DNA from: an uncultured Bacteroidota bacterium
Lineage (GTDB): Bacteria; Bacteroidota; Bacteroidia; NS11-12g; UBA9320
Assembly (NCBI GenBank): GCA_913043145.1
Contig: CAJWLP010000005.1
Span: forward strand, 1 to 64,000
Direction: 5' to 3'
Length of the DNA stretch: 64,000 nucleotides
Shown one piece after another: positions 52,027 to 63,595 of this stretch; within the stretch, counting starts at the first letter, position 1; each line of letters starts with the position of its first letter. A model generated the notes under the pieces. It saw only the letters and a program-made list of their open reading frames with translations. It searched no databases and was not told the origin of the DNA. The position numbers and the translations under genes were made by a program.

Positions 52027-52051
52027 ACTTATAGTTTTTTTTACTATAAGT
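52027..52051. promoter_or_regulatory. Putative operator upstream of susC (site 1)
   Basis: ACTTATAGT, a 7-base T spacer and ACTATAAGT form a perfect 9-7-9 inverted repeat. A -7-like box TATATTCG (52060-52067) follows after 8 bp and the susC ATG is 20 bp further. The same motif appears twice in the regulator/63643 intergenic region, which supports a shared binding site for the Nudix-type regulator encoded at 62621-63346. Confidence 0.75.
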
Positions 52052-52087
52052 TATTTATTTATATTCGTACCTGAAATTCAAAAATTT

Positions 52088-55000
52088 ATGTTGAACAGGA
52101 GTTTAAATTTTATCATAGCAATATGTTTGTCTTTAGTTTCTTTAGGACAAACAGGTGCAGTATCAGGAGTTGTATCTGACAGTTTAGGTCAGAAAATCAT
52201 GGGTGCTGCAATCGTTGTTAAAGGAACCAACTCAGGGAGTATCACCGATGAGAACGGACAATACAGAATCATCAATGTTGATCTCACCAATGCAACATTA
52301 GTAGCTTCCTATTCTGGTTATAAAACTAAAGAAATCAAGGTAAAAGGAAGAAAAAATGTAAATATCATGCTTTCGGACGCATCACTTGGACTTGGCCAAG
52401 TGATGGTTGTAGGGTATGGTACTGCAACAAAAAAAGAGTTTACTGGAGCTAGTGCAAATGTTATTGGAGAAGACCTACAAAAATTAAACATCCCTCGAAT
52501 TGATCAGGCTTTACAAGGTCAGGTATCTGGTGTGAATATTAATACAAATTCAGGCTCTCCAGGAGGTTCTTCGAGTATTAGAATACGTGGCCTTTCAACT
52601 TTCGGAGATAATGACCCACTAATTTTAGTGGATGGTGTAGTTTATGACTCTGAAGGACTAAATGCTCTTAATCCTAATGATATTGAATCTGTCAATGTTT
52701 TGAAAGATGCCACTGCCGGTATTTATGGGGTAAGAGCTGCAAATGGTGTAATCTTAATCGAAACCAAAAAGGGTAGAAGAAACGTCAAACCCAAAATTGA
52801 ATTAAGTGCATACACAGGAGTTCAACAAGCTACTAAAAAATTAAATTTATTAAATGCACGTGAATATGCCGTTCTCAAAAATGAAATGTTCGCAAATGGG
52901 AATAACTCACTTCCCTTTTCTAATACCAATTTAGGAGAAGGTACTGACTGGCAAGATGCTGTTTTTCAAGATGCTCAAGTTCAGAACTACAATGTAACAG
53001 TTACCGGTGGTACTGAAAAAACAACCTATTCTATTGGTGGAAGTTATTTTTCTCAAGACGGGATTGTTGGTTTAGACAAATCTAATTTTACTCGTTTTAA
53101 TGGTCGTGTAAACCTTAATACTGAAATGAGTGACAGACTAAGACTTTCTAGTGTATTACTTTATACCAATGAAGAACGACAAGCACTTCCAGAGAATGGA
53201 ATAGGCTCTGTTCTATACAATACTATCAATGCCTTTCCAACAGATCCGATTAGGGGTGCTACCGGACAATTTACATATCTTGAGGAAGTAAGTGATATCA
53301 TTAACCCAATTGCTCAAATGCAAAATACATACAATACCTCCTGGGTAGATAAGCTGGTTGGTAAGGAAGAGATTGCTTTTGATATTACTGATAATTTAAC
53401 CTTCACAAATAGATTCAATTACAACTATGCAGCAGTCGATAATAAGGTATTCTCACCGTTAGTATGGTATGGTCCTGGTAAAGCTCAAAATACAGCAATT
53501 AATGCAGATTTAGATCCAACATTAGTGGAAATTGCACCTGGGAGTACAATAGAACGTGGTGCAAGCGTATATGAGGGAAGAGCAACATATAGTGACCTAA
53601 ACTTTGAGAGTTTTGTGAATCACAATACTAAGTTTAATGATATCCATACACTGAAAACAACAGCTGGTGTATCTATATTTAGTAGAAACGGAAAAGGACT
53701 TGGAGGAACTGCTTATAATATTCCTAATAATTCTTTAGATTATGCCGATATTTCGGCGAATCTTGCCCCTGGTGGTTTTTTAAATAATACTAATTCTTTC
53801 CAATTTCAGGAACGATTAGTTTCGGCATTTGTTAGAACACAATACAAGTATGGAACTAAATATAATGGTTCATTAATTATTAGACGAGATGGATCTTCAA
53901 AATTTGGGCCTAACAATCGATTTGGGATCTTTCCTACTGTCTCTGGTTCATGGTTACTTTCAGAAGAAGATTTTTATAATATTGACCGAATTAAGTTCTT
54001 CAAACTCCGATTAAGTTATGGAGTCAGTGGAAATGACCAAATTGCCAACTTTGCATATCGAGGTCTTCTTAATGGTGAGGGTGTATATGTATTTGATGAC
54101 ATCATCACGATAGGTGCTGCTATTGGTAGAGCTGCTAACCCTGACTTGAAATGGGAAACTACACGCCAATTCAACATTGGTGCAGATTTGAAAATTCTTC
54201 ACACATTTGATTTAACACTTAATTACTTTATTAAAAACACAAAAGACTTACTGTTTCAACCTGATGTATCAGGAGTACTTGGAACGGCAGGAGCAGGTAG
54301 CTACCCTCCTATTATTAATGCTGGAGATGTATCTAACAAAGGATTAGAAATTGAGCTGGGATATACTATGAAACAAGGTAAAAAGTTCAACTTAAGTACA
54401 AATATCAATGCAACATTTATCAATAATGAAGTTGTTAAGATTCCTACAGGGATAGATTTCCTTCCAGGTGCTGCCTTTGGAGTTGGCGGAAATATTGCTA
54501 CACGTTTTGAGCGAGGATTTCCAATCGGATATTTTATCGGTTATGAAACTGATGGAATATTCCAAACCCAAGAAGAAATCGACAATTCACCTGTAACTCA
54601 GGAAGGAGCTGTTCCAGGAGATTTAAGATTTGTTGATCAAGATGGTGATGGGAAAATCAACTTTAATGACGATTCTGACAAAACAATGATTGGTACTCCA
54701 ATTCCTAAAGTAACACTCGGATATAATATAAATATCAGCTACGAAGGATTTGATTTATCAGGAAATTTCTTCGCTGCTCTTGGCCAAGATATTGTTCGTA
54801 ATTATGAACGTCAACAGCCTTTTGCCAACCAACTTAACTACAATATAGATCGTTGGACTGGAGAAAATACGACCAATGTAAACCCAAGACTAACAACCGA
54901 TTTAAACAGAAATACAATTTTCTCAGACTATTTTGTAGAAGATGGATCTTTCTTGAGATTAAAGAATCTTCAGCTGGGATATACCTTTAATCCAAAACTA

Positions 55001-55186
55001 ACCCAACCTGCAAAAATCAATTCTGCTAGAATTTATATAGCAGCAAATAACCTACTAACTTTAACGAGATACAGAGGATATGACCCTGACATAGGATCGG
55101 CTGGTGGCCCGCTGGCATCAGGCATAGATTACGGTTTTTATCCCCAAGCTAGAACATTAATGGTAGGTATTTCACTTAAATTTTAA
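52088..55186 (+). CDS. susC: SusC/RagA-type TonB-dependent outer-membrane glycan transporter
   Basis: SusC pulls oligosaccharides through the outer membrane together with SusD, powered by TonB. The 1032-residue protein has a signal peptide (FIIAICLSLVSLG), a carboxypeptidase-D-like domain (GAVSGVVSDSLGQKIMGAAI), the SusC plug motif VMVVGYGTATKKEFTGA, the VSGVNINTNSGSPGGSSSIR and IRGLSTFGDNDPLILVDGVV segments, and a barrel ending in TLMVGISLKF. It heads the plus arm of the glucan locus. Confidence 0.96.
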   Translation: MLNRSLNFIIAICLSLVSLGQTGAVSGVVSDSLGQKIMGAAIVVKGTNSGSITDENGQYRIINVDLTNATLVASYSGYKTKEIKVKGRKNVNIMLSDASLGLGQVMVVGYGTATKKEFTGASANVIGEDLQKLNIPRIDQALQGQVSGVNINTNSGSPGGSSSIRIRGLSTFGDNDPLILVDGVVYDSEGLNALNPNDIESVNVLKDATAGIYGVRAANGVILIETKKGRRNVKPKIELSAYTGVQQATKKLNLLNAREYAVLKNEMFANGNNSLPFSNTNLGEGTDWQDAVFQDAQVQNYNVTVTGGTEKTTYSIGGSYFSQDGIVGLDKSNFTRFNGRVNLNTEMSDRLRLSSVLLYTNEERQALPENGIGSVLYNTINAFPTDPIRGATGQFTYLEEVSDIINPIAQMQNTYNTSWVDKLVGKEEIAFDITDNLTFTNRFNYNYAAVDNKVFSPLVWYGPGKAQNTAINADLDPTLVEIAPGSTIERGASVYEGRATYSDLNFESFVNHNTKFNDIHTLKTTAGVSIFSRNGKGLGGTAYNIPNNSLDYADISANLAPGGFLNNTNSFQFQERLVSAFVRTQYKYGTKYNGSLIIRRDGSSKFGPNNRFGIFPTVSGSWLLSEEDFYNIDRIKFFKLRLSYGVSGNDQIANFAYRGLLNGEGVYVFDDIITIGAAIGRAANPDLKWETTRQFNIGADLKILHTFDLTLNYFIKNTKDLLFQPDVSGVLGTAGAGSYPPIINAGDVSNKGLEIELGYTMKQGKKFNLSTNINATFINNEVVKIPTGIDFLPGAAFGVGGNIATRFERGFPIGYFIGYETDGIFQTQEEIDNSPVTQEGAVPGDLRFVDQDGDGKINFNDDSDKTMIGTPIPKVTLGYNINISYEGFDLSGNFFAALGQDIVRNYERQQPFANQLNYNIDRWTGENTTNVNPRLTTDLNRNTIFSDYFVEDGSFLRLKNLQLGYTFNPKLTQPAKINSARIYIAANNLLTLTRYRGYDPDIGSAGGPLASGIDYGFYPQARTLMVGISLKF

Positions 55187-55198
55187 ATATTGACATCC

Positions 55199-63388: not shown

Positions 63389-63400
63389 AACGAAATTTTT

Positions 63401-63425
63401 ACTTATAGTATTTTTTACTTTAAGT
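63401..63425. promoter_or_regulatory. Putative operator upstream of the Nudix regulator (site 2)
   Basis: ACTTATAGT, spacer ATTTTTT, ACTTTAAGT: a 9-7-9 inverted repeat with one mismatch to the perfect copy at 52027-52051. It lies directly upstream of the -7 box of the minus arm, so it would autoregulate the regulator gene together with the symporter and GH3 genes. Confidence 0.72.
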
Positions 63426-63462
63426 TTTTTTAAAAAAAAAAGTTTTTTAAAAAAAAAAAATT
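63425..63462. repeat. A/T tract block between two operators
   Basis: T7, A10, G, T6, A12 and TT follow one another within 38 bases. Such tracts in near phase are expected to bend or stiffen DNA. The block lies between operator copies 2 and 3 in the divergent gap, where it could affect looping; the long homopolymers are also prone to sequencing error. Confidence 0.6.
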
Positions 63463-63570
63463 ATACCTAAAATTATGCTCTTAAAACATATTAAAATACT
63501 GATATTTTGGAAGTTACATCAACATAAAGTTATGTATAAATCAACCTTATGTTATAGTATTTTTAAAATA

Positions 63571-63595
63571 AGATATAGTAATTTTTACTTTAAGT
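63571..63595. promoter_or_regulatory. Putative operator upstream of the gene at 63643 (site 3)
   Basis: AGATATAGT, spacer AATTTTT, ACTTTAAGT: the same 9-7-9 layout, with the left arm two bases off the perfect copy. It is followed after 11 bp by a -7-like TATATTAG (63607-63614) and then by the ATG at 63643. A weaker half-site, TTATAGTATTTTT, lies at 63552-63564. Confidence 0.65.

Follow-up and report, generated by a model that had tools for sequence, protein, structure and literature searches.

What controls the use of beta-glucan in an uncultured Bacteroidota bacterium (lineage NS11-12g; UBA9320) in which a Nudix-type regulator gene stands in a SusC/SusD locus? The locus lies in a stretch of DNA (the window) that comprises 64,000 nucleotides, positions 1 to 64,000 of contig CAJWLP010000005.1 (assembly GCA_913043145.1; genome 1.7 Mb, 80% complete). 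A first-pass annotation of the window proposed that an inverted repeat heads the three transcripts of the locus and is the operator of the regulator, which would control beta-glucan use with feedback on itself. The analysis supported this proposal in that the motif is conserved together with the regulator, a paralogous regulator goes with a different motif, and the genes nearby are of the kind needed to use beta-1,3-glucan. The regulator is probably an autoregulated, dimeric repressor of the AraR/NrtR type with a dead Nudix domain, which would keep genes for laminarin-type glucan silent until released by a glucan-derived sugar; its DNA binding as a dimer, the sign of its action (repression rather than activation) and its ligand are what we infer.

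The 9-7-9 palindrome, ACTTATAGT-N7-ACTATAAGT, is 25 base pairs (bp) long, with 18 defined bases around a 7-bp spacer. Three copies, which depart from it at 0, 1 and 3 of the 18 defined positions, were found where the first-pass annotation had placed them (operators 1 to 3, Table 1). Matches to the palindrome were expected by chance at 0.05 ± 0.22 per window (100 dinucleotide-preserving shuffles). A position matrix trained solely on regulator-upstream sites of other genomes and then run on the window returned operators 1 to 3 as its top three matches, at 28.5, 28.4 and 16.2 bits, respectively; the matrix maximum in simulated windows had a mean of 9.8, a 95th percentile of 14.2 and a highest value of 21.0 bits. 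Operators 1 and 2 are genuine beyond doubt. Operator 3 is weak by itself, and the identical sequence recurs in the close relative G003 (L174).

In the genome of the window, sites with 0-1 mismatch were confined to the glucan locus, and the sole site with 2 mismatches was located on contig 38 (L008, 2404-2428). At ≤ 3 mismatches, the plain motif gave 5 matches versus 7 for the reversed motif; such loose matches are no commoner than the reversal and were therefore not used alone. A 3-mismatch match on contig 63, which overlaps coding sequence, was set aside. Across 19 genomes of the genus, 36 sites with ≤ 1 mismatch (fewer with tandem copies merged) were counted versus one match to the reversed pattern. 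At least one such site was present in 17 of the 19 genomes, with 1-3 in each, and these sites sit at regulator, susC and lectin genes. Operators also stand in front of susC-susD-PKD-GH16 operons in relatives, where the position and the gene order differ. The whole-genome scans gave no sign of the motif at a large number of unrelated promoters, and the single good unlinked site is itself conserved.

This unlinked site, on contig 38 and distant from the glucan locus, precedes a gene that encodes an L-type lectin carrying a type IX secretion domain and that adjoins a phosphoglucosamine/phosphoglucomutase gene. The site is found 5′ of most full-length orthologues in the genus, including those of G006 and G016, where the mutase gene has moved, and by its conservation the lectin gene is a predicted conserved unlinked target. 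The first-pass annotation missed this gene, as it did the paralogous starch switch described below and a second susC-susD pair, which lay outside its view, beyond the window. Two further candidates were rejected: enolase, with a site in 1 of 18 genomes that may be due to chance or species-specific, and pckA as a target in the window's genome, since its site is kept in one subgroup and absent from this genome. Separately, a single genome (G012; L143, 3098-3122) has a 2-mismatch site 5′ of a gene for a GluP/FucP-like sugar permease.

The motif follows the regulator across several families. Wherever upstream DNA was available, every orthologue of more than about 57% identity carries the ATAGT operator 5′ of its own gene, and the own-promoter site on which the proposed feedback depends is thus conserved. 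Paralogues of 35-38% identity carry ACTTAGTGT-N7-ACACTTTGA instead (10 of 10), an AGTGT-type operator also written ACTTAGTGT-N7-ACACTAAGT. The two operator types have their spacing and the outer ACTT in common and differ in the core. The residue at the position of AraR Arg180 is Pro, Ser or Ala in 30 of 30 regulators classed with an ATAGT operator 5′ of their own gene and Arg in the 15 classed as AGTGT-type, among which the AraR of Bacteroides thetaiotaomicron (BtAraR) was counted on the basis of its crystal operator; this perfect split represents one change on the tree, so the correlation is clean without statistical independence.

In the BtAraR-DNA crystal, the operator is centred on base 14 with the half-site AGTGT at -8 to -4, the dimer has a footprint of 25 bp, and Arg180 intercalates between -6 and -5 (PMC4666351). 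The present motif equals this footprint in length. Counted from its centre, ATAGT likewise occupies -8 to -4, which makes the inner GT (-5/-4) coincide with that of the BtAraR operator; the operators differ at -7 and -6, and Arg180 is Pro here. Tandem operators 22-24 bp apart were observed in several genomes (L055, L056, L057, L063); the tandem sites of AraR are 21-bp sites 3 bp apart (PMC4666351). As a separate observation, distant f2 homologues with DTRN/DVRN helices have an inverted repeat, AATTATTGT-N7-ACAATATAT, near the gene start in 3 of 5 loci (L065, L066, L069), possibly a third operator type.

The Pfam, phmmer and fold comparisons identified the protein as an NrtR/AraR-type Nudix winged-helix regulator, in keeping with its initial assignment as Nudix-type. 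The Pfam domains NrtR_WHD (92 bits), AraR_C (53 bits) and NUDIX (weak) all scored above their cut-offs. The closest relative in the PDB by sequence was BtAraR (phmmer E 2e-55), ahead of Shewanella oneidensis NrtR (SoNrtR). An AlphaFold model built with 57 sequences had a predicted local distance difference test (pLDDT) score of 91.5 and matches 5bs6 and 3gz6; its top fold match in the PDB was also BtAraR (Foldseek E 3e-26, template-modelling score 0.77). The Nudix box is impaired: the residues past G57 read ELVPMNANLEDSANDVLKNLTG in the translation, and most of the catalytic Glu residues, as well as the Arg, of GX5EX7REUXEEXGU are substituted. A broken Nudix motif is a criterion for AraR/NrtR regulators (PMC4666351). 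Four of the six DNA contacts that together characterize AraR are conserved (K179, N181, K184 and R205); the other two are replaced, R180 by Pro and K204 by His. The AraR sugar-contact residues R34, R86 and H131 are conserved.

Genes beside the orthologous regulators include those for glycoside hydrolase (GH) families GH17, GH30, GH3 and GH16, sugar transporters, and a GH149 beta-1,3-glucan phosphorylase assigned by an NCBIfam equivalog model (1776 bits versus a cut-off of 1150). The set of GH16, GH3, GH17, GH30 and GH149 therefore points to a locus for a beta-1,3/1,6-glucan of the laminarin type, the activities being predicted from the gene families. Within the window, a SusC/SusD pair stands together with the beta-1,3-glucan-type enzymes GH16 and GH3, the combination by which laminarin loci are recognized, by family assignment. 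The description of the region as a beta-glucan locus was thereby upheld.

The operators had been described as lying 8-12 bp 5′ of a -7-like box, and the measured offsets agree (Table 1). Such a box, defined as TAnnTTTG with ≤ 1 mismatch and often TATATTCG, occurs 3-13 bp past most operators of regulator, susC, TonB-receptor, 63643-type and lectin genes. The best 8-bp offset window past the operators contained 38 boxes; in shuffles, the maximum averaged 14 and never exceeded 21. Because the usual spacing between the -7 and -33 elements of Bacteroidota promoters is 19-21 bp, the -33 element would fall inside the operator, and repression by occlusion of the -33 region would be the simplest reading of this layout. 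The layout was not seen at pckA and a second GH16 group, where other control modes are therefore possible.

The steps of the proposed switch are as follows. A dimer of the regulator with its dead Nudix fold would bind the operator through its winged helices, cover the -33 region and block transcription of susC-susD-PKD-GH16, of regulator-symporter-GH3, of the 63643 gene and then the second susC-susD, and of the unlinked lectin gene. In the cytoplasm, a sugar derived from beta-1,3-glucan, either glucose itself or a short laminari-oligosaccharide (e.g., laminaribiose), would enter the Nudix pocket, and its binding would rotate the winged helices, releasing the DNA. BtAraR is a repressor released by L-arabinose, which rotates its winged helices, and it also controls SusCD genes (PMC4666351). 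By analogy with it, an autoregulated repressor released by a cytoplasmic sugar is the reading with the best support. As for the ligand, the laminarin loci of Formosa respond to laminarin, not glucose (PMC6246565); this response and the separate alpha- and beta-glucan switches would favour an oligosaccharide, and the small pocket of BtAraR would favour a monosaccharide.

Several points weigh against this reading or parts of it. The Formosa response argues against glucose as the inducer, if the system is similar. The positions of R34, R86 and H131 are common also to the ADP-ribose sensor SoNrtR, so the triad is no proof of a sugar ligand. The substrate is deduced from gene content, operator 3 is weak, with its 3 mismatches, and genome G008 (91% complete) has a susC site and no orthologous regulator was found in it.

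The same Nudix protein might instead activate from these sites, or activate some promoters and repress others. Simple blocking does not fit every site: the pckA site of some relatives is located about 130 bp 5′ of the start and often lacks a -7 box in its vicinity. At the susC, regulator and lectin promoters, however, the operator lies over the expected -33 region near a -7 box, where bound protein should block, and descriptions of BtAraR and NrtR present both as repressors; we consider this alternative unlikely.

A still less probable explanation, to which we give little credence, is that the palindrome belongs to an unrelated factor and the Nudix gene is merely one of its targets. The link between protein and sites consists of position and conservation, and the site of G008 would fit such a factor. 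Yet the motif accompanies the regulator across families and becomes AGTGT where the recognition helix differs, its spacing agrees with the AraR crystal operator, and sites of ≤ 1 mismatch are missing from G016 and G017, two genomes that yielded no orthologue. That the protein is an NrtR orthologue which senses ADP-ribose and controls nicotinamide adenine dinucleotide (NAD) metabolism, with an incidental glucan neighbourhood, would fit the NrtR fold and the triad common with SoNrtR but is most improbable, as no NAD genes were identified beside the regulator in the annotated loci and sites, glucan genes recur there, the NCBIfam NtrR score is 136 versus a cut-off of 400 bits, and the protein is closer to AraR than to NrtR.

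A paralogue of the regulator is present in the same genus (L070, 9888-10592 and flanks; also L071-L079), with its operator 5′ of the paralogue gene itself in all 10 genomes. It belongs to the same family and resembles the present system in its 9-7-9 operator with outer ACTT, its own-gene site and an adjoining SusCD locus; it differs in having Arg180, the operator ACTTAGTGT and GH13/GH65/SusE/F/CBM48 genes. In G009, its neighbours encode two GH13 enzymes, a GH65 enzyme, a HAD-family phosphatase or phosphomutase, an MFS transporter, SusD, SusE/F and a CBM48 protein, and AGTGT-type sites were found at the regulator, a GH13 gene and a susC gene. By this gene content the paralogue locus is predicted to be a starch/maltose (alpha-glucan) SusCD locus. 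The window's genome, which is 80% complete, showed no paralogue and no AGTGT site of ≤ 1 mismatch.

The pckA promoters of G006 and G009 each combine an AGTGT-type with an ATAGT-type site, 59 bp apart (L182, 1310-1334 and 1369-1393; L184, 1309-1333 and 1368-1392), which suggests that phosphoenolpyruvate carboxykinase may be under joint control of the alpha- and beta-glucan switches. A broader proposition, on which we are evenly divided, is that in these Bacteroidia a paralogous pair of Nudix repressors for beta- and alpha-glucan is kept apart by a change in the recognition helix (Arg180 with AGTGT; Pro/Ser with ATAGT) and converges on pckA in some genomes. Laminarin use would thus depend on a dead Nudix enzyme that senses sugar in the cytoplasm, and would not require a hybrid two-component sensor.

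In the arrangement of the locus, susC-susD-PKD-GH16 on the + strand (52088-58740) is convergent with regulator-symporter-GH3 on the - strand (63346-58753), and the 63643 gene is divergent. For the GH3 protein, the top NCBIfam model was an exo-beta-1,3/1,6-glucosidase, with a score under the cut-off of the model. No further regulator was seen among the open reading frames annotated from 52027 to the contig end.

Table 1. Features of the glucan locus, its operators and promoter boxes (window positions unless marked as contig).
Feature	Position	Strand	Basis or remark
susC-like TonB-dependent transporter	52088-55186	+	NCBIfam TIGR04056, 800 bits
susD-like surface glycan-binding lipoprotein	55190-56677	+	Pfam SusD_RagB
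PKD-domain lipoprotein, probably surface glycan-binding	56692-57573	+	Pfam PKD; predicted function from position
GH16 glycoside hydrolase, laminarinase-type	57625-58740	+	Pfam Glyco_hydro_16
GH3 beta-glucosidase	58753-61080 (start probably nearer 60990)	-	Pfam GH3 N and C domains
Sodium:solute symporter	61008-62594	-	Pfam SSF; NCBIfam NF007790, 795 bits; putative sugar uptake
NrtR/AraR-type Nudix winged-helix regulator	62621-63346	-	Pfam NrtR_WHD, AraR_C, NUDIX
Secreted two-repeat protein, type IX secretion tail	63643-64000 (runs on to contig 64947)	+	
Second susC	contig 65076-68162		Beyond window, 3′ of 63643 gene
Second susD	contig 68175-69017+		Beyond window, 3′ of second susC
Operator 1	52027-52051		0 mismatches, perfect; 5′ of susC; equivalent sites 5′ of susC in relatives
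Operator 2	63401-63425		1 mismatch; 5′ of regulator gene; kept 5′ of orthologues
Operator 3	63571-63595		3 mismatches; 5′ of gene at 63643
-7-like box TATATTCG	52060-52067	+	8 bp past operator 1; same box, similar spacing at relatives' susC operators
-7 box TATTTTTG	63381-63388	-	Perfect TAnnTTTG; regulator promoter, 12 bp past operator 2
-7-like box TATATTAG	63607-63614	+	11 bp past operator 3

The genes 5′ of susC (window 47115-51969) are relA/spoT, fur-like, purA and fabD-like. The same neighbourhood also precedes the glucan operons of several relatives (e.g., L157, L163, L165, L166), which makes the insertion point an old one. Further 5′, a giant secreted protein of 1565 amino acids with PKD and CHU_C type IX secretion domains (42277-46974) looks ordinary for the group.

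Nudix-type sugar regulators (AraR, XylR) are known, and the control of SusCD genes by such a protein has already been described for AraR in B. thetaiotaomicron (PMC3878776, PMC4666351). The nearest known system is BtAraR (BT0354), the L-arabinose-responsive NrtR-family repressor of Bacteroides, with about 40% identity, the Nudix and winged-helix domains and the broken Nudix motif in common (PMC4666351). The two systems also agree in the inner spacing of the palindromic operator and in its 25-bp footprint, and both have SusCD genes in the regulon and, in some genomes, tandem sites. BtAraR differs in its arabinose genes, AGTGT core, Arg180 and Lys204, whereas the present system has beta-glucan genes, ATAGT, Pro and His at these residues, and an unlinked lectin gene; no arabinose genes, and hence no araMPRDAB linkage of the kind that marks AraR, were present among the annotated neighbours. 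XylR (BT0791), compared by description only, is a Bacteroides regulator of the same family that controls a sugar pathway, with xylose genes as targets (PMC3878776). SoNrtR (3GZ5, 3GZ6, 3GZ8; about 29% identity) has the same fold and is a palindrome-binding repressor but differs in its ADP-ribose ligand and NAD genes; the NAD-gene targets that characterize NrtR were not found here.

In the literature searched, from which subscription papers and regulon databases were excluded, no paper joined a Nudix/NrtR regulator with laminarin, and Nudix, SusC and utilization loci occurred together only in PMC3878776. The family and mechanism are known; the beta-glucan group with its operator and changed recognition residue appears to be new, to the extent that this could be checked, and so do the unlinked lectin target and the alpha-glucan paralogue.

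If the proposed control is right, a switch, its DNA address and its targets would be named for laminarin use in many uncultured lineages. The pairing of Arg180 with AGTGT versus Pro/Ser180 with ATAGT, at equal spacing, offers a natural comparison for the question of DNA specificity left open by the authors of the BtAraR study. One regulator family would then serve both alpha- and beta-glucans within the same cell.

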